A stretch of 36,962 bases of DNA from Elusimicrobiota bacterium (GTDB taxonomy: Bacteria > Elusimicrobiota > Elusimicrobia > UBA1565 > UBA9628). The position numbers and the translations under genes are program-made. The stretch is taken from contig DAIDHS010000018.1 of NCBI GenBank assembly GCA_027451985.1, positions 15,026-51,987 on the forward strand, read 5' to 3'. Shown one piece after another: positions 1-16,232 of this stretch (position 1 is its first letter; each line of letters opens with the position of its first letter). The notes below the pieces were generated by a model. The model was given only the letters and a program-made list of their open reading frames with translations, ran no database searches and was not told the DNA's origin.

Positions 1-566
1 AATTGAACGCCCTCTGGTACGATGGCGATGCGGCCTTTGAGGAATGGAAAATCTTCGAGCAGCAAGTTCCGCCCGAAGCGAGAAAGCGCGGTCGCTTCGC
101 GCCCGTGCAGGAGCTTTGCGTAGCCGGCGAGGGATTGGGCCGTGCGGCCCGTGATGGGGTTGCGCCAGTCGTGGAACGAGACCAGAAGAGGCAGGCCCAG
201 GGCGCGCAGACGCCGGTCCAGCCACGGCACGGCCTTGGTGTAGTCGCCGATGGCGTGGTAGTGGACGGCGTCCACCCGGCGCAGAAGGGGGCCTAGGCGC
301 GCCTCCATAGCGGCCGCGATGCTCTGCGGGCTGCGTCCCTTGTTGAGACGGACCAGCGTTCCCCAGCCAAGGTCCTCATCTTCGGCGCCGCGGATGGGCG
401 CGGCCGCGTATTGCCACAGAAACGGCGCGGCCGCGGCGACCGCATGTCCGCGCTCGGCGTAGCGGCGTCCAAGGTTCGAAAGGACGACGCTGAAGGTGGG
501 ATTGTCGAAGTCGCACTCGCAGAGCAGAAGGATTCTGCGCGGCGCGCGTGCGCCGGGTTTCATCAT
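1..566 (-). CDS. Glycosyltransferase, GT-B/family 4-like, 3' end outside the window
   Basis: The first 188 residues are present; the gene continues beyond position 1. It is a paralogue of the complete glycosyltransferase at 1449-2537. Both share an N-terminal pattern (hydrophobic strand, then CECDFDNPTF or SECSFHNPTF), a WGTL element, an IGDYT element, an SFHD element and the run around LLHGREAT and FGRNLLLEDFPFLKG. These belong to the N-terminal acceptor half of a GT-B enzyme; the sugar-nucleotide half is missing here. The ATG at 566 overlaps the TGA of the upstream hydrolase in an ATGA, so it is probably translationally coupled as the last visible gene of a three-gene operon. The substrate cannot be told. 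The first 80 bases match 1993-2072 exactly. Confidence 0.8.
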   Translation of the reverse strand, partial: MMKPGARAPRRILLLCECDFDNPTFSVVLSNLGRRYAERGHAVAAAAPFLWQYAAAPIRGAEDEDLGWGTLVRLNKGRSPQSIAAAMEARLGPLLRRVDAVHYHAIGDYTKAVPWLDRRLRALGLPLLVSFHDWRNPITGRTAQSLAGYAKLLHGREATALSRFGRNLLLEDFPFLKGRIAIVPEGVQ

Positions 567-1441
567 GTCCGGCCCGCGGCGAGGGACGAAGAGCCCAGAA
601 AGGCCAGAAGCGCCGCCTCGAGCTCGGCGTAACGGGGGTTGGTCTCGGGCCGGGTGACGCGCTCGTGCGCGATGCCGTCTTCCTTGGGGTAGAGGAGGAA
701 GGTTCGTCGCGATTGCGGCGGCAAGGAGGCCATAAAGTCGGCCACCGCGTCCGAGTCGACCGCGGCGTCCACGGCCGTGGCCAGCGCGAAAAATCCCAAG
801 CCGCGCGCGGCGATGGCGGAGAGAAGCTCCGAGCGCGCCGCATCGTTGTCCTGGATGAGCCGGCGCAGCTGGCAGACGGCGTTCAAGGCCATCTTGCCGT
901 AGCGGTTGGCGTCGCCGCGGGTGTCCATGGCCCAGGGATGCACGGCCTTCATGATGGGCGCCACGCCCGGTAGGCAGGCCCAAGGCACGAGGCGGGAAAC
1001 CAGTTTCAAGGCGGGCGTGAACAAGAACACGTCGCCGAAATCGCAGGGCGCCGGACTCGCGCAATTGCGGCGCAGGGCGTCCAAGACGAGAGCCCCGCCG
1101 GTGGAAAATCCGGCCAAGGAGACCGTGCGCCCCAGAGCCGCGGCCGCATCCAGGCCGAAGTCCGTCTCGTCGCGCCACTCCTTGAGCGTGACGCGGAGCA
1201 GATCCTGCGGGCGCGTGCCGTGGCCGGGGAGCAAAATCGCGGCCACGTTGTAGCCTTGGGCGTGGAAGAGGCGGGCGAGTTCCCTCATCGAGTGGGGCGA
1301 GTCGGTCAGCCCGTGGACCATCAGAATGGAGCGCTCGGTTCGTCGGCCGTGGAGGAGCAGGAAAGGCTTGTTGTCTGGGTCGGGAGCCGGGCTTTGCGCG
1401 ATGCGCGCTTGAAATCGCTCGACTGCTTGCGAGCGGGTCAC
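563..1441 (-). CDS. Alpha/beta-hydrolase (lysophospholipase/carboxylesterase-like serine hydrolase)
   Basis: This 292-residue protein has the oxyanion-hole element HGLTDSP (about 43-49) and the nucleophile elbow GFSTGG with Ser113. A probable acid lies at Asp225 or Asp229 and the catalytic His259 in DGIAHE. These are typical of monoacylglycerol lipase or carboxylesterase-like enzymes. No signal peptide is seen, so it is probably cytoplasmic, unlike its secreted paralogue at 11225-12463, which shares GFSTGGAL and DGIAH-VTRP. The GTG start lies just downstream of the glycosyltransferase stop at 1449, and its own stop overlaps the next glycosyltransferase start. Being between two glycosyltransferases suggests deacylation or hydrolysis of a glycan or glycolipid intermediate; this is inference. 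The substrate is unknown. Confidence 0.85.
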   Translation of the reverse strand: MTRSQAVERFQARIAQSPAPDPDNKPFLLLHGRRTERSILMVHGLTDSPHSMRELARLFHAQGYNVAAILLPGHGTRPQDLLRVTLKEWRDETDFGLDAAAALGRTVSLAGFSTGGALVLDALRRNCASPAPCDFGDVFLFTPALKLVSRLVPWACLPGVAPIMKAVHPWAMDTRGDANRYGKMALNAVCQLRRLIQDNDAARSELLSAIAARGLGFFALATAVDAAVDSDAVADFMASLPPQSRRTFLLYPKEDGIAHERVTRPETNPRYAELEAALLAFLGSSSLAAGRT

Positions 1442-1448
1442 GTCCCAA

Positions 1449-2537
1449 TTATAGCAGGTCTAGATAGCGAGCCGCGGCGCTCTCCCAAGTATAGCGGGCG
1501 GCGGTTCGCTTGGCTTCACGGCCCAGCCGCCGGCGCAAAGGCGCGTCCTCTAAGAGCCGCTTCAGGGCGCGCGCGAGCGGGGCTATTTTTCCCGGCGGCA
1601 CCAGGAGTCCCGAGACCTCGTTTCGGATGAAATCCGTCGGTCCCGTGGCGCTGGCCACGACGGCCTTGCCCAAAGCCATGGCTTCGAGCGCTGCCATGCC
1701 GAAAAATTCGTGGCGCGAGGGCAGGACTACGAACTCGCTGGCCGCCATTAAGCCGAGGGTCTCGCGGTGTCCGGACTGGCCCAGGAACCGGACCTTGCCG
1801 GAACGGGCCAGCCCCAGGCGTTCGGCCAATGCGCGGGCTTGCCCGCGCGGGTCATTGCCCGCGAAGACCAGCGGCGGAGGGTTTTCCAGCGCGGCCCAGG
1901 CCATCATAAGGATATCCGGAGCCTTGTAGTAAGCCAGCCACGCGGGGCAAAGGACGAAAGGCGTTTCGGGCGCGCGGCGCGTCAAGGGCTCCAATTGAAC
2001 GCCCTCTGGTACGATGGCGATGCGGCCTTTGAGGAATGGAAAATCTTCGAGCAGCAAGTTCCGCCCGAAGCGCGAAGGCACGGTCGCTTCGCGCCCGTGC
2101 AGGAGGGACGCGTAGCCGGCCACGGATTCGGGCGTGCGGCGGATGGATGGATTGCGGTAATCGTGGAATGAAGCAAGGACAGCGGCCTTGGAGGCGCGCA
2201 GGAGACGGTCCAGCCGCAAGACGGCCTCGGTGTAGTCGCCGATGAGGTGCAGGTGAACAAAGTCCGCCTCTCGCGTAAGCGGCGCGAGTTTGGCGATATT
2301 GACGGAGGGAACGCGGCCGCCGTCGTTTCCCCAAAGGCGCATGAGCGTTCCCCAGGAAGTCCGGCGGTTTTTTGCTCCGCGGGGTTCGGACAGGGTGTAT
2401 GGCGAAAGCGGCGCGGCGACCCGCACGGAGTGTCCGCGGCCGGCGTATTCGAGAGCCAGGCTGTCCAGGACGATGCGGAACGTGGGGTTGTGAAAAGAAC
2501 ACTCGCTGATTACCAGGATCTTGCGCATGGGGGACAT
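1449..2537 (-). CDS. Glycosyltransferase, GT4-like
   Basis: A complete 362-residue GT-B enzyme. The N-terminal half has the open beta-alpha pattern of the acceptor domain. The C-terminal half has the nucleotide-sugar domain, with FLGQSGHRE, the acidic motif HEFFGMAALEAMALGK (about 280-295), then GPTDFI and GLLVPPG. This is the usual layout of family 4 glycosyltransferases, which move a sugar from a nucleotide donor with retention. It is the first gene of a leftward operon (this gene, hydrolase, second glycosyltransferase). The ATG at 2537 is preferred over the ATG at 2528 because it lies next to the AT-rich intergenic promoter region, but no strong ribosome-binding site is visible for either. 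Donor and acceptor are unknown. The 43-residue peptide at 2621 diverges from it. Confidence 0.88.
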   Translation of the reverse strand: MSPMRKILVISECSFHNPTFRIVLDSLALEYAGRGHSVRVAAPLSPYTLSEPRGAKNRRTSWGTLMRLWGNDGGRVPSVNIAKLAPLTREADFVHLHLIGDYTEAVLRLDRLLRASKAAVLASFHDYRNPSIRRTPESVAGYASLLHGREATVPSRFGRNLLLEDFPFLKGRIAIVPEGVQLEPLTRRAPETPFVLCPAWLAYYKAPDILMMAWAALENPPPLVFAGNDPRGQARALAERLGLARSGKVRFLGQSGHRETLGLMAASEFVVLPSRHEFFGMAALEAMALGKAVVASATGPTDFIRNEVSGLLVPPGKIAPLARALKRLLEDAPLRRRLGREAKRTAARYTWESAAARYLDLL

Positions 2538-2620
2538 GTTTTAGTTAAGGTTAATTTGATAAGCCCGAACTTATATATAATAAACAAGTTTGAAGTTTAT
2601 GTTCTGGAGATAAGCAAGGA
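2538..2620. promoter_or_regulatory. AT-rich divergent promoter region
   Basis: This 83-bp gap is strikingly AT-rich against its GC-rich surroundings and separates the leftward glycosyltransferase operon from the rightward small peptide. On the plus strand a perfect TATAAT is at 2576-2581, with TTGATA at 2556-2561 (spacing 14, short) or TTAATT at 2551-2556 (spacing 19, long) as possible -35 boxes. GGAG at 2606-2609 lies 11 bases before the peptide ATG. The minus strand is also A/T-rich, but I see no clean promoter there. Confidence 0.5.
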
Positions 2621-2752
2621 ATGAAGAAGAAAGACGGTGAAAAGCCGAAAAAAGGCCGCGGTGGAAAAAAGAAATACACTGTTCCTGCCTTGACTTTGGC
2701 CGGCAGCCTGCTGTCTGCGGGAGGGCTTTGGGCGGCGGTCGTCGCCCTCTAA
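2621..2752 (+). CDS. Small peptide with YxxPxLxxxG motif, candidate RiPP precursor
   Basis: This 43-codon reading frame is ATG to TAA. Residues 1-18 are highly basic (mostly Lys, Gly and Arg). Residues 19-28 read YTVPALTLAG, an exact match to YxxPxLxxxG, the leader motif known from lasso-peptide precursors and some other RiPP leaders, where it binds a recognition domain. Residues 29-43 are hydrophobic (SLLSAGG then LWAAVVAL). The conserved Thr of true lasso leaders is missing, and no lasso cyclase or protease is in the window. A Gly-Gly at 34-35 could be a cleavage site, leaving an eight-residue core; this is a guess. GGAG lies 11 bases upstream, with TATAAT further up. The radical SAM gene at 5542-8175 supports a RiPP reading. 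The alternative is a single-pass membrane microprotein, since 20-43 could span a membrane. Confidence 0.6.
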   Translation: MKKKDGEKPKKGRGGKKKYTVPALTLAGSLLSAGGLWAAVVAL

Positions 2753-2777
2753 AGTTTTGGCGCGCGGCCGGCGGCCG

Positions 2778-3341
2778 CTAGGACAGCCAATCCACGATGA
2801 CGAATTTCGCCCCCGAGGCGACTTTCTCCCCAGAGTGAGGATGCGTGATGCCGGAGGGAAAGACGACGGCCTTGCCGGGCTCCGGTTCGACGCGGACGTT
2901 TTGCCGCGGGAAGTAGGTCCGCCCGCCGTCGTAGTCCGCGTTCAGGTAACAGACCAAACTGATAATGCGCCCGCTCACCGTGGGACCTGCCCTATCGATA
3001 TGCATCATGATGTGGCCGCCCGCCTCGTAGCGCAGCATCATCGCCTGCCTGGTGGCGTAACGGAAGACGCGGTATTCCCAACACAGCATGGCGGCCGGCT
3101 TGGCTGCGGCTTCGACCGCCGAGAGGTAGCGCTTGAGAAGCCCCGGCAGGGAGCGCAGCCGCAGCTTCGAGACCCACGCGTCGTCATGGTTGACGGCTTG
3201 TACGGTGGCGTAGGGCCAGGCCAGCGCCGCGTCCTCCCAGCGCCGCCTGCGCCGGCCGATGCCGTCAAGGATGTCGCGGCACTGGGAAGGGGAAAACATC
3301 TGGAAACTGAAAATGTCCTGGGCCTCCTGCTTGATTTTCAC
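2778..3341 (-). CDS. Fe(II)/2-oxoglutarate-dependent oxygenase (prolyl-4-hydroxylase-like), copy 1
   Basis: This 187-residue protein has the double-stranded beta-helix signature of Fe(II)/2OG oxygenases. His114 and Asp116 form HID, His169 lies in THPH, and Lys179 is ten residues later, the position of the 2OG-binding basic residue in prolyl 4-hydroxylases. The conserved core NADYDGGRTYFPRQ lies between. Such enzymes hydroxylate or otherwise oxidise a C-H bond using O2 and 2OG. Copy 2 at 4104-4664 is a close paralogue with a nearly identical C-terminal third. The start is GTG, aligned with the MKIK start of copy 2, without a clear ribosome-binding site. It converges on the small peptide gene, and its start is only 11 bases from the divergent gene at 3353. 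The substrate is unknown; the small peptide is a candidate. Confidence 0.85.
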   Translation of the reverse strand: MKIKQEAQDIFSFQMFSPSQCRDILDGIGRRRRRWEDAALAWPYATVQAVNHDDAWVSKLRLRSLPGLLKRYLSAVEAAAKPAAMLCWEYRVFRYATRQAMMLRYEAGGHIMMHIDRAGPTVSGRIISLVCYLNADYDGGRTYFPRQNVRVEPEPGKAVVFPSGITHPHSGEKVASGAKFVIVDWLS

Positions 3342-3352
3342 GCGCGCGATCC

Positions 3353-4126
3353 ATGGCGGCGATGAGCAATAAGCCCGCCGTCCCGCCTCCGCCGCGCCGC
3401 TTGTTCCACTGGACCGACGCCGCCGGGCTTGAGCGCATCGCCGCCGCGGCCGCGTCCTTGCAGGGATTGGCGGGCTTGCGGGCCGCGTGCGCCGCGAAAT
3501 ACGAAGGCTCTCTTCCCCGAGCGCTGGGCGCGCCGGCCGCCCCGATTCTTTTCGGCTGGATCCACCCCGTGACGGGGATGGCGGTCAATCCGGGAGAAAT
3601 CTACGCCGGGCGCGGCGCTCCCCGGGACGCCCGGATGCTCATCGTCGACATCAGGCGCGGCCTTGCGGTCGCCGCAGTCGTGCATGACGCCGCATCCGGC
3701 CGGGTGCGCGCCAGCGTCCCCGCGCCGCCCGGCGGCGCCGATTTGGTTTATCACGAGCTGCGGCACCCCAACGGATCGTCGCTGCGCGAGTGGATCGTTC
3801 TGCGCGCGCGGGCCGTCAAGAGCCTTGCCGCGCTGCCGTCGCGCGAGCTTAAAATCTTTTTGCGTGGGGAAATGGAGAAGCTCGGAAATCCATCCTATCA
3901 ATATCCCGAGCGGCTGCTTCATGGCCGTTCCGCGAGGCTTACGCGGGGCCGCCGGCGCTTTTTTTTGGACGTCACTTCGCTCACGGCGGCGCGCCGGGCC
4001 GTCATCATCCCCGCGATCGAGCGCGTGCTTCGCTTGAGGCCCGATGACGTCCCCGCCGCGTTCAGGCATCCGCTGATTGTTGGTCCGCTCGGCATCCGCG
4101 TCTCTAGGACAGCCAGTCCACGATGA
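3353..4126 (+). CDS. Unrecognised protein with H-Y-E pattern, possible ADP-ribosyltransferase-like fold, copy 1
   Basis: I do not recognise this 257-residue family. It is paralogous to the protein at 4661-5374. Both share LFHWT near the N-terminus, LFxW-HPVTG, then a YA pair, V/IxHE and a GSSxREWxVL strand. His19, Tyr84 and Glu146 sit in the order and local settings of the H-Y-E residues of ADP-ribosyltransferase-type folds (HxT strand, Y strand, E followed by VVxNP in the paralogue). That comparison is inference from pattern only. Neither a signal peptide nor a membrane segment is visible. The ATG at 3353 or the one at 3362 could be the start. The last 23 bases overlap the 3' end of oxygenase copy 2 in convergent orientation. 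It always sits beside an oxygenase, so the two may work as a pair. Confidence 0.7.
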   Translation: MAAMSNKPAVPPPPRRLFHWTDAAGLERIAAAAASLQGLAGLRAACAAKYEGSLPRALGAPAAPILFGWIHPVTGMAVNPGEIYAGRGAPRDARMLIVDIRRGLAVAAVVHDAASGRVRASVPAPPGGADLVYHELRHPNGSSLREWIVLRARAVKSLAALPSRELKIFLRGEMEKLGNPSYQYPERLLHGRSARLTRGRRRFFLDVTSLTAARRAVIIPAIERVLRLRPDDVPAAFRHPLIVGPLGIRVSRTASPR

Positions 4127-4664
4127 CGAACTTGGTTCCCGAGGCGACTTTTTCCACGCCGTGGGGATGCGTGATGCCGGAGGGAAAGATGACGGCCTTG
4201 CCGGGCTCCGGATCGACGCGGACGTTTTGCCGCGGAAAGTAGGTCCGGCCGCCGTCGTAGTCCGCGTTCAGGTAGCAGACCAGGCTGATGATCCGGCCGC
4301 GGATGGTGCCCATGCAATCGATGTGGGGGATGAAGTGGCCTCCGGGCCCGTAGCGCAGCAGCAGCGCCTGCCGGGTGGCGAAACGGAAGACGCGGTATTC
4401 CCAACATAGCATGGCGGCCGGCCTGGCCGAGGACTCCACGGCGCGTCGGTAGGCGTCTTTAAGGGACGATACCCCTCCGAGCGGCGCTTGGTGCGCCAAA
4501 CCGTCCTGGTAATCGACGACGGGTCGCAAATCGTCGGACCATGCCAAGGGCGCGTCTCTCCAGCGCGGAGGACGTTTGGCGAGGAGCCGGAGCGCGTCCG
4601 CGCACTCGGCGGGAGAGAACATCCGGAAGCTGTAGATGTTCCGGCCCTCTTCTTTGATTTTCAT
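4104..4664 (-). CDS. Fe(II)/2-oxoglutarate-dependent oxygenase (prolyl-4-hydroxylase-like), copy 2
   Basis: This 186-residue paralogue of the enzyme at 2778-3341 has the metal triad His114, Asp116 and His168 and the 2OG-binding Lys178, with the same NADYDGGRTYFPRQ core. The ATG overlaps the TGA of the upstream H-Y-E gene (4661-5374) as ATGA, so the two are probably translated together. The N-terminal half differs more from copy 1 than the C-terminal half, which fits duplication followed by divergence in substrate contact. A degenerate third copy lies at 8209-8552. The function is oxidation of an unknown substrate, possibly the small peptide. Confidence 0.87.
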   Translation of the reverse strand: MKIKEEGRNIYSFRMFSPAECADALRLLAKRPPRWRDAPLAWSDDLRPVVDYQDGLAHQAPLGGVSSLKDAYRRAVESSARPAAMLCWEYRVFRFATRQALLLRYGPGGHFIPHIDCMGTIRGRIISLVCYLNADYDGGRTYFPRQNVRVDPEPGKAVIFPSGITHPHGVEKVASGTKFVIVDWLS

Positions 4665-5374
4665 CTGCGCCCGGCGGGCGAGAACTCGGGGAAAGCGGTC
4701 CTCAGCTCTAAGGGGATTCGCCGCGGAGAGAGCCGCGCGACCGCGCGGAGGGCGGGAAGGACGATTTTACCCCGCAGGCCTGGAGAAGTCACGCTTAAAA
4801 AAGCCGACTGGCGGAGCCCCGGAAATTTGCTGACGGCGTGCGCCGCGCGCGGCGGGTAGTCGTAGCGCGGATCGGCGAGCCGCGAGAGCTCTTGCTTGAA
4901 GAAACGCCGCAAAAAACGAGCGTCCGCCGTGAAGCTCTCGACGCATGCGGGATTGAGGACGACCCATTCGCGCACGGAGGAGCCGTCGTCGTAGCTGATT
5001 TCGTGAAAAATCAAATCCGCGCCGCGTGGGATGCGCGGGGCGAAGCGCCGCGGCTTGGCGGGAAGGTTCTTCCCGTCGTGGTCCCGAAGAGCGCACACGC
5101 GCGCGCCTCTCTTGATTTTGAGGGTGAGCAGCCTGGAGTCGCCTGCACTTTCCGCAGCATAGACGACTTTGGGTCCCGAGGCGATTCCGGTTACGGGATG
5201 AGACCACGCGAAGAGGGCTGTCATGGAGCGCAAATCCGGATGGAAACGGTAAAGCGCCGATTCGGGCGGTATCTTTTTGAGCATGAGCCCACCGCTCTTT
5301 TTCGCGTGGCGCGCGAAATGCATTAATTTTTCCGCCGTGGTCCAGTGGAACAAAGTCGCTGGCGCGTTCGCCAT
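4661..5374 (-). CDS. Unrecognised protein with H-Y-E pattern, possible ADP-ribosyltransferase-like fold, copy 2
   Basis: This is a 237-residue paralogue of the protein at 3353-4126. From the ATG at 5374, His10 lies in FHWTTAEKL, Tyr72 in VVYAAE, and Glu136 in SSVREWVVLNP. The last strand pattern (E, then VVxNP) is what many ADP-ribosyltransferase folds show around the catalytic Glu, but overall similarity to a named family is not something I can show. A TTG at 5410 would add 12 residues; the ATG is preferred because the paralogues align better from there. It is coupled to oxygenase copy 2 by an ATGA overlap. The remnant at 8584-8650 shows that a third copy once stood upstream of another oxygenase in the same order, so the pairing is a repeated arrangement. 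Confidence 0.7.
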   Translation of the reverse strand: MANAPATLFHWTTAEKLMHFARHAKKSGGLMLKKIPPESALYRFHPDLRSMTALFAWSHPVTGIASGPKVVYAAESAGDSRLLTLKIKRGARVCALRDHDGKNLPAKPRRFAPRIPRGADLIFHEISYDDGSSVREWVVLNPACVESFTADARFLRRFFKQELSRLADPRYDYPPRAAHAVSKFPGLRQSAFLSVTSPGLRGKIVLPALRAVARLSPRRIPLELRTAFPEFSPAGRR

Positions 5375-5430
5375 GGCAAATAGCTTATCGGAAAATTCCG
5401 TTGATTTCAACGCGAAAAAGCTCTAGCCGT

Positions 5431-5485
5431 CCGTGCGGTCGTCTGCCGCCAAACCTCGGACAAGAGGCATCGCGTCTTGTGGCAT
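5431..5485 (+). pseudogene. Gene fragment of the oxygenase at 8681-9304
   Basis: These 55 bases differ at only two positions from 8953-9007, which encode residues about 92-109 of the intact oxygenase. In the same frame the fragment reads RAVVCRQTSDKRHRVLWHGD and then runs to a stop, so it ends just past the first metal ligand (HGD instead of HTD). The rest of the gene cannot be found. The 131-bp gap 5411-5541 otherwise holds no gene I can support. Confidence 0.75.
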
Positions 5486-5541
5486 GGCGACCTGCTTTCC
5501 TCCGGAGGGCTTTGAGCCTCCGTCATCGTGCCGCCAAGACT

Positions 5542-8175
5542 CTAGGCTTGGGGTTGCGGCTTCAGCCGCCTCGTTCGGTGCGGGCCCTCGCTTCTAAGCG
5601 GCGGCATCAAACGCAGTCCCAGGTGCCTTAATCGGAGCATTCGCTCGAAAAGAATCCGCTGCCGGCCGGATATGTTCGGCGCGCGCGGGGCCAGGGTCAA
5701 GAAATCCCGGTTCTTTCGGATGATCCAGCGTTTCTGCAATAAGTGGCCGAGCGCTTTTCGTACCGCGCCCGGATTCCAATTCTTATCGCGGCCGCGGCAT
5801 GCGCTTGCCACCGCCGAAAACGATTTTATCGTTTCGCAAAAATGGAAAATGAAAGCCTCGATTCCATGCAGCCTGGTTTCCCGCATTTCCGGAGCTTTTC
5901 CGATAGCCAGCGGCCGCGAATCGTAAATATCCACGAATCCGTCGCCGTTGTAATAGGCGAAAATGTTCCGCTCGTGGATGTTTCTCCAAAACTCCAGGCC
6001 GCGCCGAAGTTCGTCCGGGAGCGCGGCGTCCGAACTGGCCGGGCGCGGGGGCGGCAGGTGCGTCAGGGCCAGGATGTCCCCGGCCGCGATAGGATCGCCG
6101 GAGGCGGCGGACGCGCCGGACACGGCGGACGCGCCGGACACGGCCGCCCGTTTGAGGGCTTGGACGCTTTGCAGGCTCATGTTTTCGGCGCTGACGCGCG
6201 CTTCGGGCCGCTCTGGATCGCCAAGAGATTGCGGCGAACGCCGGGAAGGATGATTGCGGCGCGCGGCCAACATTTGTTCGAAGCGCGCCGTCTGGGCCGG
6301 CGTCAGTTTGGAGACGGGGAGCGCCAAATTGAGATAAAGTCCGTCCTCGCACAGCAGCCAGCGCCGCTCGACCAAGGATTGCAGGGTTTTGACGACGTCA
6401 TGCTCGCTCCAGCGGGAGTTCCTCGCCCGGCAGAGCGCCGCGATTTCCCGCGCTCCTAAAAGCGCGTCGGCGGCCTTAAACGCGGCGGCCTCCAGGCCTT
6501 CTAAGATGCACTCGCGCAATTCGGGCGTTCCACCGGTGCGCAGCGGCCGCGAGTCGTAAAGCCGCACAGACTCGCCGTCGCCGTCGCAGGCGAAAAAGTT
6601 CTCCGGCCAAATGGCCCTCCAAAACTCGGCCGTCTTTACCAAGGCTTCGGTGTGCGGCCCGAATATTCTCGCACGGTCCTCGGCGGCGAATTCAAACACG
6701 TAGGCGATATCGCGAAGGACGAACCGCGGCTCTGGGTAAAGGAAGCGGTAGCATTCATGCGGGGCGGGCCGCTTTAACCCGAAATCTTTCCAGTTCTCAT
6801 AATAAGGGCTGAAGCGGTCGATATGAATTTCTCCTTGATGCTGCGGCGGCGGCAGGTGAGTCAAGGAAAGCACGGTTTGAATCAGCTGCGGATAATCATC
6901 CTGATTTTCCCCGGGAAAACCATAAATCATATTCCAAAGCAAATAAACTGCGTTCAAAGCGGCAAGCTTCATGGTTTGAACGTTTTGAATCGTGCGGACA
7001 CCCTTGCGGAGAAGTTTCAGCGCGGGCGTGCTGAAGGTCTCGATGCCGGGCTGCCAAGACAGCACTCCGGCTTCCGCGAGGTCCGCCGCCTGTCCGGGCT
7101 TGATGTTCGATTTGAACTCGCAATAGATGTCCCAATCCGCCGCGAGATTTTTGCGCTGCCGCGCGAGCTCGGGCAGCAAGGTTTTAAAGTAGTCTTGGGA
7201 GAGAATTAAATCGCAGAACATCAGGCGCTGCGCCTGATGGCGCCGATGAAGAGCCGTAATTTCCCGCAGGACCAATTCGGCCTTCTTGGCCCGGAACGCC
7301 ATCGCCTGCCCGGGCAGGCCGCAAAACACGCAGTGCTGCTTCTGGCCCCACCAGCACCCGCGGGAGGCTTCCAGGGTCACGATGGGGGTGAAATGCGCGC
7401 CGGCGCCGGAAAGTTCGAGCTGCTCGAAATAGTCGTCGTGATCCGGCGCCGGCAGGAGGTTCATGTCAATGACGGGCATATGCGCCGGATCTCGCGGCAG
7501 AACTTTCCCATTTTCGCGCATGGAGACCCTGGGCGCCGGAGCGTGGGGTTTGCCGCTCTCGATGTTGCGCGCCAGGGCCAAAAGCGCCTGCTCTCCCTCT
7601 CCGTCGACGACGTAATCTATCCAGTCGCAGCCGCGCAAGGCCGCCAAGCCCATGTCGCCCTCGACATTGGCGCCGCCGAACGCGATTTTGCTTTTGGGGA
7701 AGCGGCCCTTGATGAGCTTCGCCATGAGCAGGCTGGCCGAGTGGTTCCAAAGGCAGGAGGAAAATCCGATGAGGCCGTAGCAGCCCCAGTCGATGCCGTC
7801 AAGGCATTCGGATAGAAAGCTCGGAATCTCACGCTCCACGACGGCGGAAAATTCTTGCGGAGAAACCTTGGCGGAGCGAAGAAAATCCTGCATCCCCGCG
7901 ACGCGAACGATGTCGTCGATGCCTTGGGGGAGCGGCGCTTGCGGCCCTGAGCCGGGGCCGAAAAGATGATAGGCGAAGAGCCATTCAGGCCAGGGCAGGG
8001 CGCCGGTGCGGCTGAGGCGGACGCCTAGGCCGCCCAGGCGGCGGACTAGGCGCATGTAGAGATGGTGGCAGTCCGCTTCGATTCCGTTGTGGCGCAGCCA
8101 GCTTTTGAGGCAGGCCAGGGAGAGGGGCGCTATCTCAATGTCCGACCACGGCATCATGACTAGGGCGACTTTCAT
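5542..8175 (-). CDS. Radical SAM protein of the RiPP maturation type 1 family, with duplicated C-terminal domain
   Basis: This is an 877-residue enzyme. Residues 1-200 resemble the cobalamin-binding-like N-terminal domain (ALVMMPW at 4-10, EWLFAYHLFG, GFSS, FGGANVEGDMGL, VVDGEGE). The radical SAM domain follows, with SRGCWWGQKQHCVFCGLPG giving the CX7CX2C cluster ligands Cys274, Cys282 and Cys285. QPGIETFS, LLRKG, WNMIYGFPGE and DRFSPYY complete the pattern of 'ribosomal peptide maturation radical SAM protein 1' (TIGR03975-like). These enzymes modify precursor peptides with SAM-derived radicals. It is longer than the roughly 600-650 residues I expect: a C-terminal unit (LTHLPPP, EFWR, YDSRPL, a winged-helix-like W...RW stretch) occurs at about 437-640 and again at 703-852, joined by a VSGASA repeat. 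The remnant oxygenase and H-Y-E genes lie upstream on the same strand. Confidence 0.88.
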   Translation of the reverse strand: MKVALVMMPWSDIEIAPLSLACLKSWLRHNGIEADCHHLYMRLVRRLGGLGVRLSRTGALPWPEWLFAYHLFGPGSGPQAPLPQGIDDIVRVAGMQDFLRSAKVSPQEFSAVVEREIPSFLSECLDGIDWGCYGLIGFSSCLWNHSASLLMAKLIKGRFPKSKIAFGGANVEGDMGLAALRGCDWIDYVVDGEGEQALLALARNIESGKPHAPAPRVSMRENGKVLPRDPAHMPVIDMNLLPAPDHDDYFEQLELSGAGAHFTPIVTLEASRGCWWGQKQHCVFCGLPGQAMAFRAKKAELVLREITALHRRHQAQRLMFCDLILSQDYFKTLLPELARQRKNLAADWDIYCEFKSNIKPGQAADLAEAGVLSWQPGIETFSTPALKLLRKGVRTIQNVQTMKLAALNAVYLLWNMIYGFPGENQDDYPQLIQTVLSLTHLPPPQHQGEIHIDRFSPYYENWKDFGLKRPAPHECYRFLYPEPRFVLRDIAYVFEFAAEDRARIFGPHTEALVKTAEFWRAIWPENFFACDGDGESVRLYDSRPLRTGGTPELRECILEGLEAAAFKAADALLGAREIAALCRARNSRWSEHDVVKTLQSLVERRWLLCEDGLYLNLALPVSKLTPAQTARFEQMLAARRNHPSRRSPQSLGDPERPEARVSAENMSLQSVQALKRAAVSGASAVSGASAASGDPIAAGDILALTHLPPPRPASSDAALPDELRRGLEFWRNIHERNIFAYYNGDGFVDIYDSRPLAIGKAPEMRETRLHGIEAFIFHFCETIKSFSAVASACRGRDKNWNPGAVRKALGHLLQKRWIIRKNRDFLTLAPRAPNISGRQRILFERMLRLRHLGLRLMPPLRSEGPHRTRRLKPQPQA
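6105..6140. repeat. 18-bp tandem repeat, two copies, inside the radical SAM gene
   Basis: The 18-bp unit at 6105-6122 is repeated exactly at 6123-6140. On the minus strand it encodes two VSGASA units (about residues 679-690) in the flexible linker between the two C-terminal domains. It looks like a recent slippage event in a low-constraint linker. Confidence 0.85.
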
Positions 8176-8208
8176 GGGCGGAGGCAGTATGATATAAAAG
8201 CTCTCGGC

Positions 8209-8552
8209 TTACGAGAGCCAATCCACGATGGCGAGCTTGGTCCCCGAGGCGACTTTTTCCGCGGGGAATAGGTCCGACCGTCCTCGTAGCGCAGCAGCAT
8301 CGCGGCCGGTTTGGACGCGGATTCGACGGCGCGGCGATGGGCCCGCGCCAGGAAGGGAACGCCGCGTAGAACGGCCTGGTTCGCCAGGCCGTCATCATGA
8401 TCGTACACGGGCTTCAAATCGTCGGACTATCCCAGGGGCGAGTCTTTCCAGCGGGGAGGGCGCTTGGCGATTCGCGCCAGCGCATCCGCGCATTCCCGGG
8501 GAGAAAACATCAGGAAGCTGATAATGCTTTGGCCTTCTTCTTGTATTGTCAT
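8209..8552 (-). pseudogene. Degenerate third copy of the small Fe(II)/2OG oxygenase
   Basis: Starting at the ATG at 8552, the first 41 codons match oxygenase copy 2 closely (EEGQSIISF, MFSPRECADAL, KRPPRWKD). Codon 42, Trp in the intact gene, is TAG (8427-8429). The match continues to KPAAML and then jumps over the segment with the HxD ligands: only LRYE, GRTY and, in a shifted frame, EKVASGTKLAIVDWLS remain before TAA. Two internal deletions, one frame change and a nonsense codon remove the metal site. It lies directly upstream of the radical SAM gene on the same strand, which suggests an ancestral operon of H-Y-E gene, oxygenase and radical SAM gene. Confidence 0.88.
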
Positions 8553-8583
8553 GGAGGTTTTGCCCCGGCCGGACCTATTATAT

Positions 8584-8650
8584 TTAACTTGATTTGGATG
8601 CGCGTCGCACGAAATGGTTTAATTTTTCCGCTTTGTCCACCGCAACGGGT
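8584..8650 (-). pseudogene. Remnant of a third H-Y-E family gene
   Basis: On the minus strand this stretch matches the start of the gene at 4661-5374. One frame gives RWTK (for HWTT) and, after a one-base shift, AEKLNHFVRRASKSS follows (for AEKLMHFARHAKKSG) and then stops. It lies just upstream of the degenerate oxygenase at 8209-8552, in the same order as the intact pair. The remaining ~200 codons are gone. The start of the neighbouring oxygenase is therefore unlikely to be the TTG at 8594, which would read through this remnant. Confidence 0.7.
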
Positions 8651-8680
8651 GTTTCAAAGGAAGTTCCTCGCGTCACGGGT

Positions 8681-9304
8681 ATGCGATTGCCTTCCGGCCG
8701 CCGCATCGAGCGCATGCGAAGGGGCTACGCGCGGCAGAGCTACGCGCGCTGGCCTGGGTTTTTGGACGCGCGGCTTTTAAAGCGCATCCTGCCCAGAATT
8801 CGGGCGGCAGCCTTTCGCGAGCGGTACTATGCGAAGAGCTACCGCGGCATTTGCAGGCACTGGAGCCGTGCGCTGAGCCTGCTGCTAGATCAGCCGCCGC
8901 TGCATGATTGCGTACAGAGGCTTTCCGGCTGCCCATACCCTATTCGCGCCATCCGTGCGGTCGTCTACCGCCAAACCTCGGACAAGAGGCATCGAGTCTT
9001 GTGGCATACGGATCCGCCGACGCTCAATGGCCGCTGGGCCGAGTGCACCTTGTCCGTCAACCTCGGCGGCTCTTATGAAGGCGGCGAACTTGAGATTCGC
9101 GCGCCGGGCGGCAAGAGGCTTATGGCGCGCATCGCCAACAAGAAATCGGGCGACGCGGTTTTGTTCCGCCATACGCTGGTCCACCGCGGCGCCCCGGTCG
9201 TGGGCCCGCGTCCCAAGCTCGTGCTCTTCGTCTGGTTTTCTCTCAGACCTTTGCACCGGGCTGGCAAGCTGAGCCTGCGGGCGCGCAAAGGTGTCCGGGC
9301 ATGA
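8681..9304 (+). CDS. Fe(II)/2-oxoglutarate-dependent oxygenase, divergent type
   Basis: From the ATG at 8681 the protein has 207 residues, with N-terminal half basic and Tyr-rich. The C-terminal beta-helix carries His109 and Asp111 (WHTD), NLGG-YEGGELEIR, and His168 (LVHRG) followed by Arg177 and Lys179 as candidate 2OG-binding residues. It is only distantly related to copies 1 and 2. The frame is open back to a TTG at 8594, but that part overlaps the remnant of another gene; an ATG at 8714 is a further alternative, and no good ribosome-binding site decides. Its TGA overlaps the ATG of the methyltransferase, so the two are probably coupled. A 55-bp fragment of a second copy lies at 5431-5485. 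Confidence 0.8.
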   Translation: MRLPSGRRIERMRRGYARQSYARWPGFLDARLLKRILPRIRAAAFRERYYAKSYRGICRHWSRALSLLLDQPPLHDCVQRLSGCPYPIRAIRAVVYRQTSDKRHRVLWHTDPPTLNGRWAECTLSVNLGGSYEGGELEIRAPGGKRLMARIANKKSGDAVLFRHTLVHRGAPVVGPRPKLVLFVWFSLRPLHRAGKLSLRARKGVRA

Positions 9305-10137
9305 GCGCCGGGCGCGGCGGCTACGCGGGAAAAAAGAAAGGCTACATCCACGGCTATTCCAAGGCCGAGCAAGAGCGGCTCTCGGCGCAAAGCAAGTTTC
9401 TGGAGTCCATGGTGTTCGCGGGCGTGGATTTCTCGCAAACCGCGCGCGTCTTGGAAATCGGCTGCGGCGTGGGCGCGCAGACGCAGATTCTTTTGCGGCG
9501 CTTCCCGAAGATTTTCGTCCAAGGCGTCGACGTCTCGCCCGCGCAGATTTCGCGCGCGCGGGAAAATCTGGCCCGGCCCATCGCGCAAGGCCGCGCGGAC
9601 GTCCGCGTGGCCGACGGCGAGAGGCTGCCATTCGCGGACGCCTCCTTCGACGGGGCTTTTTTCTGCTGGGTGCTGGAGCACCTGCAAAAGCCCCAGGCGG
9701 TGCTCAAGGAACTGCGTCGGGTCTTGAAGCCCGGCGCCCGGATTTTCGGCATCGAGGTGCAAAACGAAAGCCTCTACCTCTACCCCGAGTGCCCCGCGGT
9801 CGCGGCGTACTGGAAAGAGTACAACGACGCGCAGCGCGCTGTGGGCGGCGATCCGTGCGTGGGCGCCAAGACCGGCAACCTTCTGCGCCAGGCGGGCTTC
9901 AAGGACGTGCAAGTCTCCGCGTGGACCAGGCACTACGATCAGCGCGACCGCGCGGCCTATAAGCGCATGATCGACTACTGGCAGCGCCTGCTTTTAAGCG
10001 TCGCGCCGCAGCTCCTGGCCGCCGGACGCGTGGACCAGAAGCTCATCCGCGCGGTCAAGCGCGAGCACGCGCGCCTGAAGTCCCACCCCCAGGGCGTGTT
10101 CTTCTACACGCCGCTGAAGTTCTCCGCCAGCAGATAA
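9301..10137 (+). CDS. Class I SAM-dependent methyltransferase
   Basis: This 278-residue enzyme has motif I VLEIGCGVGAQT at about 44-55, an acidic loop GVDVSPAQI, motif II around ADGERLPFADASFDG, FCWVLEHL and then LRRVLKPGARIFG. This is the Rossmann-type methyltransferase pattern of the UbiE/Methyltransf_11 group. The C-terminal 100 residues, which would set the substrate, are not recognised. The ATG at 9301 overlaps the oxygenase stop (ATGA), and AAAGG lies about eight bases upstream inside that gene. It could methylate the same product as the oxygenase; this is inference from coupling. Inverted repeats follow its stop directly. Confidence 0.87.
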   Translation: MSAGRGGYAGKKKGYIHGYSKAEQERLSAQSKFLESMVFAGVDFSQTARVLEIGCGVGAQTQILLRRFPKIFVQGVDVSPAQISRARENLARPIAQGRADVRVADGERLPFADASFDGAFFCWVLEHLQKPQAVLKELRRVLKPGARIFGIEVQNESLYLYPECPAVAAYWKEYNDAQRAVGGDPCVGAKTGNLLRQAGFKDVQVSAWTRHYDQRDRAAYKRMIDYWQRLLLSVAPQLLAAGRVDQKLIRAVKREHARLKSHPQGVFFYTPLKFSASR

Positions 10138-11224: not shown

Positions 11225-12463
11225 CTATGGGCGGCCGTCGAAGGACAGGGAAAGCGCGAGCGAGTGGAGGCTTGGGCTTTTGCCCAGGCGCACGGGGCGG
11301 TTGAACGCCGCCGCTTGGGCCGCGGTCTCGGCGCTTAGGAACTGCGCGAGGCCGTCGGTGAGTTGGGCGAAGTGCGCGGCGTTGTTGGTGGGCGTATCCG
11401 GGCGGGTGACGTCCGCGTGGGCGATGCCGTCTTGTTCGGGATAGAGGATGAACCGCGCGCGCGGGCCGGAGAAATTTTGCATGAATTGAACGACCGCCTG
11501 CGGGTTGACGGTCGTGTCCGAGTCGGACTCGACCGTAAAGACGCCCACGCCGTGGTCCTTGATGTCCGCGATGATGCGCGGCGAGACGCGCACGACGGAT
11601 TTGTAGTCGATTAAAGAGCCGATGAGCGCGGGGGTGATGTCGGGCAGGCCGATGGTCACGGGCAGGCGCGGCAGGCGGCCTTGGGCGGAGTTCTCCTCGA
11701 TTTGCGTCTCCAGCTGGCAGACGCCGTTCAAGGCCAGGCGGGCGTAGCGGCCTTGGTAGTAGTCCCGGTAAGGCCCGGGCTTGTCCGCGTCCTTGGCCCA
11801 CGGCGCGGTCGAGGCCCAGGGGTGCACGGCCTCGAAAGCCGCCAAGTCGAGCGGCGAGAGGCTGCAGACGACCGGCGCCTTGCGGTCGTGAATCTGGATG
11901 GCGGGGGAGAACAGGAAGAGATCCTGCAAGTCGAGCGGATGGGCGCCCGCGTAATTCCGGCGCACGAGGTTGAGCGTCAGGGCGCCGCCGGTGGAAAATC
12001 CCGCGATGGACACGCGCCGGCCGATGGCCGCGGCGACTTGCAGGCCCTCGGCGGCCGCCTTCTGCCACTGCGAGAGCTTGACGTGGAGCAGGTCCTTGGC
12101 CGCGCGTCCATGGCCGGGCAGCAGGATGGCCACCACATTGTAGCCGTAGGAATAAAAAATGTCCGCCAGCGTCTTCATCGAATAGGGCGAGTCGCCCAGG
12201 CCGTGGATCATAAGAATCGAGCGCGCGGCTTTTTGCCCGGGCTGGTGGATCATCAGAAAGGGCAGGTTCTCGCCGTAGCAGAGGTGCGTGGGGCTCTTGG
12301 CCGCGCAGGCGGACGGAGACGGCGCGAGCGCCGCGATTTGGGCTTGGAAGGCTGACACGGTTTGGGCGTCGAAGGCTTGGTCCGCGAAAATCGGGGCGGC
12401 CGCGCAGACCAGGGCCGCGGCCAGGCAGGTCGCGCCGCGCCGGAGGTTGATTGGGTTTTTCAT
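11225..12463 (-). CDS. Secreted alpha/beta-hydrolase (serine esterase/lipase-like)
   Basis: This 412-residue protein begins with a signal peptide (basic start, then CLAAALVCAAAPIFA, cleavage near 27). The hydrolase domain has IHGLGDSP (about 87-94), the nucleophile elbow GFSTGG with Ser157, an acid in the SDSDTTVNP region and a His in DGIAHADVTRP. It is a paralogue of the cytoplasmic-looking enzyme at 563-1441 with a longer interior and C-terminus. It would hydrolyse an ester in the periplasm or outside. ATG at 12463 is preceded by AAGGGAC and, 12 bases upstream, by a perfect TATAAT on the minus strand. The stop is followed by the leftward gene ending at 10387 after about 150 bases. Confidence 0.87.
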   Translation of the reverse strand: MKNPINLRRGATCLAAALVCAAAPIFADQAFDAQTVSAFQAQIAALAPSPSACAAKSPTHLCYGENLPFLMIHQPGQKAARSILMIHGLGDSPYSMKTLADIFYSYGYNVVAILLPGHGRAAKDLLHVKLSQWQKAAAEGLQVAAAIGRRVSIAGFSTGGALTLNLVRRNYAGAHPLDLQDLFLFSPAIQIHDRKAPVVCSLSPLDLAAFEAVHPWASTAPWAKDADKPGPYRDYYQGRYARLALNGVCQLETQIEENSAQGRLPRLPVTIGLPDITPALIGSLIDYKSVVRVSPRIIADIKDHGVGVFTVESDSDTTVNPQAVVQFMQNFSGPRARFILYPEQDGIAHADVTRPDTPTNNAAHFAQLTDGLAQFLSAETAAQAAAFNRPVRLGKSPSLHSLALSLSFDGRP

Positions 12464-13768: not shown

Positions 13769-15082
<1,314 letters not shown>

Positions 15083-15089
15083 TCGCGCC

Positions 15090-16232
15090 GTGATGCGCGG
15101 GCGAGGACGCTTGGCCGCCGCGGCCCTCGCGGCGTGCGGGCTCGCCCTCGCGGCCCCGGCCGCGCCGCTTCGGGCCCGAGAATCTCCCGCGCTTACGCGC
15201 AAAAGCGCGGCGGCTCTCAAGCATGCGCGCGCCATCGCCGCTCGGCTCGATCGGCGCTTGCTCTTGACGGACTCCTTCACGCGCGGCGGCGCAGGCGCCC
15301 CGTTTAAGGGGCTCCTGGGCCGGGCCGGCCTTCAGCCGCTCGAAACCGCGGCGCCTAATCCACCCGCGCCCGCGTTCAAAGAGATACTGCCGCCGCTTTT
15401 GCCCGAGCCGGCTTTGGCGCGCTGCCGGTTTTGGTCCGTCGATTGCCAAAATCCCACGGACGCGAGGTACGAGACCATCGCGGGCCCGGCTTACTCGGCC
15501 AATCCGGACGGCTCCACGAACATCTCAGCGGAGGACGTCGTCCAGGGCGACTTGGACGACTGCTACTTTATGGCCTCTTTGGCCGCCGTCGCCGCCGCGC
15601 ATCCAGACGTCATCCGGCGCATGATCCGGCGGAACGCTGACGGCACGTTTTCCGTGACCTTCTACAAGCGGACTCCACCGTGGGAATTCTGGAAGCCCGA
15701 ATACGAGAAGACGACCGTGCGGGTCGACAATCGCTTTCCGGTCGAACCGAACGATTATGGTCCGCCCACGCCCCTCTACGCCCAGCAGGGACTGGGGGGG
15801 ATTTGGCCCATGGTGGCGGAGAAAGCCTACGCCGCCTACAAGGGTTCCTACGGCGCTATCGACGGCATCCTGGCCGACGGCTTCGCGTCCTCCATCCTTG
15901 AGCTCATCACCGGCAAGGACAGCGCGGTTTACCCCGCGATGATCATCCCGGCGCGGGCGCTGGAAGGCTGGCTTAAGGCCGGCGCCGTGGTGGTCGTGAG
16001 CACTAAAATCGACTTGTCGCCCTGGCTCGGCTCCTGGGCCAAGGCGCTGCCCGGACCCCTCTACCAAAACGGCACGCTGGTGCCGACGCATGATTACTGG
16101 GTCAAGTCCGTGAACGTGAAAAAGGGCACCGTGACCTTGGGGAATCCCTGGGGGTGGGACGATTTTACGACGATCACCATGGGTGAGTTCCGCGCGGAGC
16201 TCAGCATCCTTTATGTCAACCCGGTCCGTTAG
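15090..16232 (+). CDS. Secreted calpain-like (C2 family) cysteine protease
   Basis: A signal peptide (AAAALAACGLALAAPAAPLRA) is followed by a calpain catalytic domain of about 250 residues. VVQGDLDDCYFMASLAAVA holds the nucleophile Cys158. VRVDNRFPV, GGIWPMVAEKAYA and KGSYGAIDGI are the mid-domain marks, THDYWVKSV holds His334 and LGNPWGW holds Asn352. Calpain-type proteases are less common in bacteria than in eukaryotes, and bacterial ones usually occur as secreted or surface proteins without calcium-binding EF hands; none is seen here. GTG at 15090 or ATG at 15093 could start the protein; no strong ribosome-binding site is visible, so it may depend on read-through from ahcY seven bases upstream. 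The lipoprotein gene overlaps its end. Confidence 0.88.
   Translation: MMRGRGRLAAAALAACGLALAAPAAPLRARESPALTRKSAAALKHARAIAARLDRRLLLTDSFTRGGAGAPFKGLLGRAGLQPLETAAPNPPAPAFKEILPPLLPEPALARCRFWSVDCQNPTDARYETIAGPAYSANPDGSTNISAEDVVQGDLDDCYFMASLAAVAAAHPDVIRRMIRRNADGTFSVTFYKRTPPWEFWKPEYEKTTVRVDNRFPVEPNDYGPPTPLYAQQGLGGIWPMVAEKAYAAYKGSYGAIDGILADGFASSILELITGKDSAVYPAMIIPARALEGWLKAGAVVVVSTKIDLSPWLGSWAKALPGPLYQNGTLVPTHDYWVKSVNVKKGTVTLGNPWGWDDFTTITMGEFRAELSILYVNPVR

Follow-up and report, generated by a model that had tools for sequence, protein, structure and literature searches.

What does a bacterium of the Elusimicrobiota make from a 43-residue peptide that is encoded beside a radical S-adenosylmethionine (SAM) enzyme, three oxygenases and two glycosyltransferases? 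These genes occupy the left end of a 36,962-nucleotide stretch, called the window here (contig 18, positions 15026-51987), in a genome assembly of 2.4 Mb in 107 contigs (G000), and an earlier note on this DNA had read them as one pathway for a ribosomally synthesized and post-translationally modified peptide (RiPP). Judged by its sequence, the peptide belongs to a recurrent RiPP-like family, of which the window locus, encoding a C-methyltransferase, oxygenases and two paired orphan proteins, is an unusual member. The best explanation, to which we give a probability of about 0.68, is that its product is a RiPP bearing sugar, C-methyl and hydroxyl groups. Going beyond the earlier note, the leader is recognizably of the lasso type, glycosyltransferases (GTs) of family GT4 are the commonest predicted neighbors of the peptides, and the radical SAM protein is assigned to a C-methyltransferase family.

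The window peptide carries the motif YTVPALTLAG (Y19, P22, L24 and G28), in agreement with the lasso-type leader motif YxxPx[LVIFA], and its proposed core is SLLSAGGLWAAVVAL. It matches no Pfam or NCBIfam family at E 0.1. A strict scan for YxxPxLxxxG in open reading frames (ORFs) of 25-129 aa, at 31 loci and in the window, returned no more than five distinct peptides. All five were of this type, and each came from a locus fetched for its radical SAM match; such peptides sit at further radical SAM loci in the window genome and its relatives. A hidden Markov model (HMM) of the five gave 25 matches in 18 of 235 genomes of the class, and a model of 17 peptides gave 36 matches in 27 of 340 genomes of the phylum (15 of 100 genera). 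Seventeen of the 36 are the model's own rows and 19 are new; the window peptide is itself a row in both models. Plain ORFs of 34-74 codons, with starts chosen by script, account for 33/36 matches, and the counts of 36 and 27 also include two long fusions (G020:C137 and G015:C9) and one frame without a start-codon ORF (G001:C254).

Members of the family have a lysine-rich, variable N-terminus, then Y/W-xxP with a hydrophobic residue two positions on, xxxG, xL and a variable tail, the family leader being the lasso-type motif YxxPxLxxxGxL. One tail type, KHGVLSIVEGD, is invariant in 7 genomes in which the N-termini have diverged. The other types are TALA(R/H)SY (5 genomes), FRTFY (3 genomes, one genus) and MSQKGLMATSIPG (2 genomes), and three of the four types, FRTFY being the exception, occur across genera. 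The MSQKGLMATSIPG pair comes from the window genome (G000:C1) and from G007, a relative of the same taxonomic family (G007:C44). Its two tails are equal at 13/14 residues, against 3/17 in the N-terminal part, and 7/13 of the codons for identical tail residues differ, synonymously only. Tails conserved apart from diverging N-termini are the pattern expected of a leader followed by a selected core. At the level of sequence the family thus combines a short precursor, a conserved leader, a separately evolving core and adjoining modifying enzymes, as a RiPP should.

Some family members have further features. A Peptidase_S74 (endosialidase chaperone) domain is fused to a leader of the same type at L214:7567-7986 (G007:C105), L154:8670-9119 (G015:C9) and L153:7294- (G020:C137, judged by similarity alone); such a fusion would be a precursor whose C-terminal follower may cleave itself off. 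The sequence ICCLTER after the leader is common to two peptide-like frames, L076 ~1824-1934 (G001:C254), which has no ordinary start codon, and L061:6804-7028 (G007:C76). Peptides of the KHGVLSIVEGD type are found at L069, L075 and five more loci, and the neighbors at L069 are a PqqD protein, a DegT sugar aminotransferase and a radical SAM protein that resembles AprD4 at a score below cut-off.

Around the window peptide, the genes named in the earlier note were all recovered (the 43-aa peptide, the radical SAM protein, three oxygenases, the methyltransferase and the GT4-hydrolase-GT4 group), along with two of the proteins that it labelled H-Y-E. From the left, a gap-cut GT4 gene, an alpha/beta hydrolase gene and a second GT4 gene are tightly packed on the minus strand; next come the divergent peptide gene, two 2-oxoglutarate (2OG) oxygenase genes (OGa and OGb), each followed by an H-Y-E gene (H-Y-E 1, on the plus strand, and H-Y-E 2), and the radical SAM gene, and the right end of the locus holds a broken oxygenase, OGc and the methyltransferase (the last two on the plus strand). 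The features are as follows.

1..566, minus strand: GT4 glycosyltransferase a, N-terminal half, with the remainder past a scaffold gap outside the left edge of the window
563..1441, minus strand: alpha/beta hydrolase (PF12697, 1.3e-9), with a 4-bp overlap with GT4 a
1449..2537, minus strand: GT4 glycosyltransferase b (PF00534, 2.3e-26), divergent from the peptide gene
2621..2752, plus strand: 43-aa precursor peptide, leader ~1-28, proposed core ~29-43
2778..3341, minus strand: 2OG-Fe(II) oxygenase OGa (PF13640, 8.1e-15)
3353..4126, plus strand: H-Y-E protein 1, 36-40% identical to H-Y-E 2
4104..4664, minus strand: 2OG-Fe(II) oxygenase OGb (PF13640, 2.6e-16), 64% identical to OGa
4661..5410, minus strand: H-Y-E protein 2, with a 4-bp overlap with OGb
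5426..5509, plus strand: OGc-like gene remnant (71% over 28 aa), preceding H-Y-E 2
5542..8175, minus strand: B12-type radical SAM protein, TIGR03975 (8.8e-165), with its C-terminal domain present twice
6256..6693, minus strand: first of the two C-terminal domains in the radical SAM protein, a predicted winged helix, weakly like PqqD and RiPP recognition elements (RREs)
5578..6042, minus strand: second copy of the radical SAM C-terminal domain
8172..8552, minus strand: broken 2OG oxygenase copy, with an internal stop and a frame change; its first 86 residues are 66% identical to OGb
8584..8715, minus strand: sequence that may be left over from the N-terminus of an H-Y-E protein, noticed by eye among the listed ORFs and undetected by tblastn at E 0.01
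8594..9304, plus strand: 2OG oxygenase OGc (PF13640, 6e-7), more likely to start at ATG 8714 than at the listed TTG 8594
9301..10137, plus strand: class I SAM-dependent methyltransferase (PF08241, 1.4e-24), with a 4-bp overlap with OGc

The radical SAM protein matches TIGR03975, 'RiPP maturation radical SAM C-methyltransferase', at 549.6 bits against a cut-off of 281.85, and C274, C282 and C285 (CX7CX2C) are invariant across it and three relatives. Nine other TIGR03975-type loci were found among 97 relatives, with at most nine candidates scored per genome, and a peptide of the same type is present at five of them (G007:C23, C80 and C105; G076:C252 and C236). The G007:C105 peptide is an S74 fusion 7 kb from the radical SAM gene; in the search that gave this fusion (L214:7567-7986), the remaining matches were judged spurious by eye. 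The three intact 2OG oxygenases (PF13640) have an invariant H114, D116 and H167, and by identity two oxygenase types recur at related loci: OGa and OGb are 40-42% identical (OGa 42%) to an oxygenase at G007:C80, and OGc is 30-33% identical to oxygenases at G007:C23 and C76. The earlier note had allowed that its reading would fail if homologues of the radical SAM gene never sat near the peptide or the oxygenases. Peptide, TIGR03975 protein and oxygenases recur together in another genus, at G007:C80 and C23, so that this outcome did not occur, and the reading as a RiPP locus is largely supported. There is no such support for the H-Y-E proteins, which were expected to be conserved with the peptide and were found as a pair in the window genome alone.

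The H-Y-E proteins match no Pfam or NCBIfam family. No relatives were found among the 235 class genomes except their own, nor in plasmids, nor when 84,980 species genomes and viral contigs were scanned by pattern, which reaches only relatives keeping one of two short stretches, and the pair looks like a local addition. The H-W-T / Y-A / E pattern, which we take to be that of ADP-ribosyltransferase families, suggested that they may have such an activity; profile searches gave no match, and the structure model was poor (predicted local distance difference test, pLDDT, 35). The methyltransferase, a putative member of the pathway, has only generic matches elsewhere, the best of them in a control locus.

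A wider view of the family came from a census of genes within 6 kb of 36 peptide sites, set against 20 control loci (14-kb stretches hand-picked at round coordinates in ten of the peptide genomes). Component names such as GT2, rSAM and NTase (radical SAM and nucleotidyltransferase) are by-eye names for sequence clusters, of some of which one to a few members were scanned; the scanned NTase member had no family match. Some GT (GT4, GT2 or GT9) is present at 32/36 peptide sites and at most 5/20 controls. GT4, the commonest neighbor, stands at 25/36 sites (2/20 controls), followed by GT2 at 23/36 (3/20), radical SAM proteins of the B12 component at 19/36 (1/20) and PqqD at 12/36 (1/20). A weakly HprK-like component occurs at 10/36 sites and 0/20 controls, its label coming from one scanned member whose match (E 0.009) fell far short of the cut-off. 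Radical SAM or GT genes that are plainly present at G000:C9 and G000:C1 escaped the gene caller, so that the census undercounts there. Three G007 peptides that were first found by HMM, with radical SAM ignored (C15, C44 and C76), each have a B12-component radical SAM gene no more than 0.8 kb away.

The GT4 enzymes themselves also sort with the peptides. When the window GT4 is compared with G000 and G007, its own locus set aside, the nine top-scoring matches all lie at peptide loci, and the tenth lies elsewhere. In a quick tree of 60 GT4s, 41/44 peptide-locus GT4s, including window GT4 b, fall on one branch that contains 0/16 background GT4s. The background label changes 3 times on this tree, against a mean of 14.2 for shuffled labels, and 0/500 shuffles gave a value as low.

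Leader recognition could be provided in two ways. At E <= 1e-12, a limit chosen after the list was seen, PqqD is present in 27/27 peptide genomes and 51/208 others (Fisher p 3e-15, kinship ignored); the counts are 26/26 peptide genomes when G001 is left out, and 21/21 against 8/35 inside the order. At E <= 0.001 they are 27/27 and 82/208. The window genome has one PqqD, which is free-standing on contig 12 and away from the peptide loci, and such a protein is a candidate common leader-binding protein for several scattered precursors. Free-standing PqqD genes with no same-type peptide found alongside are L212:8365-8649 (G000:C12) and L213:2925-3230 (G007:C77). The radical SAM C-terminal domain (43-row alignment) is predicted to fold into three strands, three helices and a wing (pLDDT 93.2), and it aligns with PqqD in hhalign (probability 69, E 4.4e-5). 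The RRE of the lasso protein TbiB1 ranked 6 in Foldseek (E 0.12, template modeling score 0.64 by target length), among many winged helices. These results suggest that the radical SAM protein may itself supply a leader-binding domain, of which the window enzyme would have two copies.

In the pathway that we favor, each step of which rests on family membership, the YxxPxLxxxG leader would be bound by a PqqD-type domain, either the contig-12 PqqD or the two winged helices at the C-terminus of the radical SAM protein. The radical SAM enzyme would then methylate unreactive carbons in the hydrophobic core, the oxygenases would add hydroxyls, and the GT4s would attach sugar to serine or to a new hydroxyl. 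The hydrolase and the methyltransferase may tailor the product, and the hydrolase at 563..1441 is a candidate for trimming or releasing it. Each H-Y-E protein probably works together with its paired oxygenase, and leader removal or trimming and export would fall to proteins outside the locus.

Several observations count against this pathway. As to the peptide, its tail SLLSAGGLWAAVVAL has no orthologue among the family's HMM matches, so that the window core is assigned from the family, and a promoter scan gave no promoter-like site upstream. No such peptide was found by motif or HMM at four of the nine TIGR03975 loci (G076:C247, G014, G028 and G029). Nor was a convincing one found at 34 loci outside Elusimicrobia, several on short contigs, in a scan whose length limit misses S74 fusions and whose chance matches (L085, L088, L108 and L112) were judged spurious by eye; the pairing therefore looks particular to Elusimicrobia in this sample. 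In the census, the NTase component (7/36 sites, 2/20 controls) and the ABC (ATP-binding cassette) ATPases (7/36, 2/20) show little or no contrast, one member of the B12 radical SAM component is an AprD4-like enzyme whose substrates are probably sugars, the neighbor HMMs were built from peptide-locus genes and so lean towards peptide loci, and related genomes are not independent trials. The GT4 branch has a Shimodaira-Hasegawa approximate likelihood ratio support (SH-aLRT) of 93, under the tool's mark of 95, and three peptide-locus GT4s lie outside it. The RRE assignment is weak: Foldseek gave no match at E 0.001, its rows are mostly DNA-binding winged helices, and TbiB1 is the sole named RRE among the 50 listed. 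Finally, no exporter or leader peptidase was seen by eye nearby, including the leftward 15 kb, where no family search was run.

An unlikely alternative is that the ribosomally made peptide accepts or anchors a longer surface glycan. GT4 would add the first sugar to the peptide and other GTs an extension before Wzm/Wzt-type export, and the radical SAM enzyme and oxygenases would prepare the peptide or modify the sugars. Several GTs stand at each locus, a GT9 component at 4/36 sites, a sulfatase component at 5/36 and an ABC-2 permease at 6/36, and the one LSIVEGD locus that was scanned combines an AprD4-like radical SAM protein (below cut-off) with DegT. The single ABC pair scanned (G007:C44) is Wzm/Wzt- or TagH-like, over the Pfam but below the NCBIfam cut-offs; however, no such pair was seen at the window, the permease is found at just 6/36 sites, and the cores vary among loci beyond the needs of a mere anchor. 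It is likewise improbable that the Elusimicrobia peptides in general prime exported glycoconjugates, as acceptors for a glycan begun by dedicated GT4s, with the window peptide first C-methylated and hydroxylated to give new hydroxyls for sugar and a further group added by the H-Y-E proteins.

More doubtful still is the proposal of a locus whose enzymes tailor glycans or lipids, with the peptide being a small protein outside that pathway, perhaps a regulator or a GT4 chaperone. Sugars and lipids are also among the substrates of GT4, GT2 and B12 radical SAM proteins, and a GT is indeed the commonest partner here, but such a locus would not account for the leader motif, the co-occurrence with PqqD, the separately conserved tails with synonymous change, or a radical SAM protein well above its RiPP family cut-off. 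Least probable is a decaying locus that underwent block duplication and then gene loss and maybe no longer has a product, as the broken 2OG copy, the OGc remnant, the fused extra radical SAM domain and the possible H-Y-E remnant (by eye) would suggest, since the peptide, radical SAM protein, three oxygenases, both H-Y-E proteins, hydrolase, GT4 b and methyltransferase are all intact ORFs.

Part of the locus is in fact duplicated (OGa/OGb, the H-Y-E pair, the GT4 pair, the radical SAM C-terminal domain, whose two copies are 37% identical over 131 aa, and an OGc fragment). GT4 a, 59% identical to GT4 b across 182 aa, is cut by a run of N directly outside the window and has its C-terminus past the gap; beyond the run, a 91% match to GT4 residues 330-362 lies at contig 14832-14930. 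A near-identical stretch in the two GT4 genes, at window 3-154 and ~1995-2150, lies at the scaffold gap and reflects either gene conversion or misassembly. The earlier note had thought that the locus might extend to the left; by eye, the 15 kb there, with HisS and other genes, add to the locus only the rest of this one GT4. The right flank begins with a protein of no assigned function and a paralogous hydrolase, followed by housekeeping-looking genes (by eye). That hydrolase (11225-12463) has a likely signal peptide, seen by eye, and is 39% identical to the one in the GT4 operon. Farther along, and also by eye, the window encodes a protein with a calpain-like QGxxxDCYF motif (15090-16232) and two large proteins that are probably secreted and both contain an HExxH-like motif (24676-27384 and 27454-30063).

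How does the glycosylated, C-methylated and hydroxylated RiPP proposed here compare with known systems? In the open-access literature searched, the peptide family was not described among the matches listed. TIGR03975 C-methyltransferase pathways are of the proteusin type, with a leader that is usually nitrile-hydratase-type. The window shares their radical SAM family, well above the cut-off; a proteusin-type precursor was rejected, there being no leader-family match in Pfam or NCBIfam at E 0.1 and the leader here being of the lasso type. Glycocins (PMC9266682) offer a parallel to the glycosylated ribosomal peptide proposed here; the window peptide has no Cys and hence, unlike glycocins, no nested disulfides.

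Lasso peptides come closer. According to PMC12710340, YxxP is the lasso recognition motif and RREs fused to glycosyltransferases have been reported, and PMC9266682 describes pseudomycoidin as a phosphorylated lasso peptide carrying hexoses. The window peptide has the YxxPxL leader, and two PqqD proteins of the peptide loci, L074 and L025, fit the lasso PqqD model NF033530 best, below its cut-off. The window peptide differs in having no penultimate leader Thr. The lasso B2 leader protease (PF13471) was over cut-off in 0/6 genomes, with one weak match in G003 and none in G000, and no asparagine-synthetase-like macrolactam cyclase was seen by eye at the loci, where no family search for it was run. 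Identity as a lasso peptide was rejected because of the missing B2 protein and leader Thr.

The linear polyphosphorylated peptides of Bacillota (PMC13381572) have a conserved N-terminal YxxP motif (YxxPxVLxHQxIxFETxxS) with variable C-termini, a PqqD-type RRE and glycosyltransferase-rich loci, together with a conserved HprK-like kinase, NTP transferase and SipW-type peptidase. The window resembles them in its YxxP leader and surrounding glycosyltransferases, and perhaps in a PqqD-type RRE. Its peptide, in contrast, reads YTVPALTLAGSLL, without HQxIxFET; no HprK kinase, NTP transferase or SipW-type peptidase was found among ten scanned window proteins or in the 6-kb census of the window site; and a radical SAM C-methyltransferase, oxygenases and H-Y-E proteins are present instead. 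Those related Elusimicrobia loci at which a weakly HprK-like gene occurs may stand nearer to the linear polyphosphorylated peptides. The nearest published kinds, lasso and linear polyphosphorylated peptides, thus do not fit. If the favored pathway is correct, a phylum for which no described RiPP appeared among the literature matches listed has a varied family of ribosomal peptides that carry sugars, and with it GT4 enzymes whose substrates may be peptides; the matched precursors, tails and enzymes are a ready set for studying the addition of sugar and methyl groups to peptides. In such a family the lasso leader and its recognition protein would have found a second use, the lasso cyclase giving way to glycosyltransferases, C-methyltransferases, oxygenases and enzymes that make sugars.

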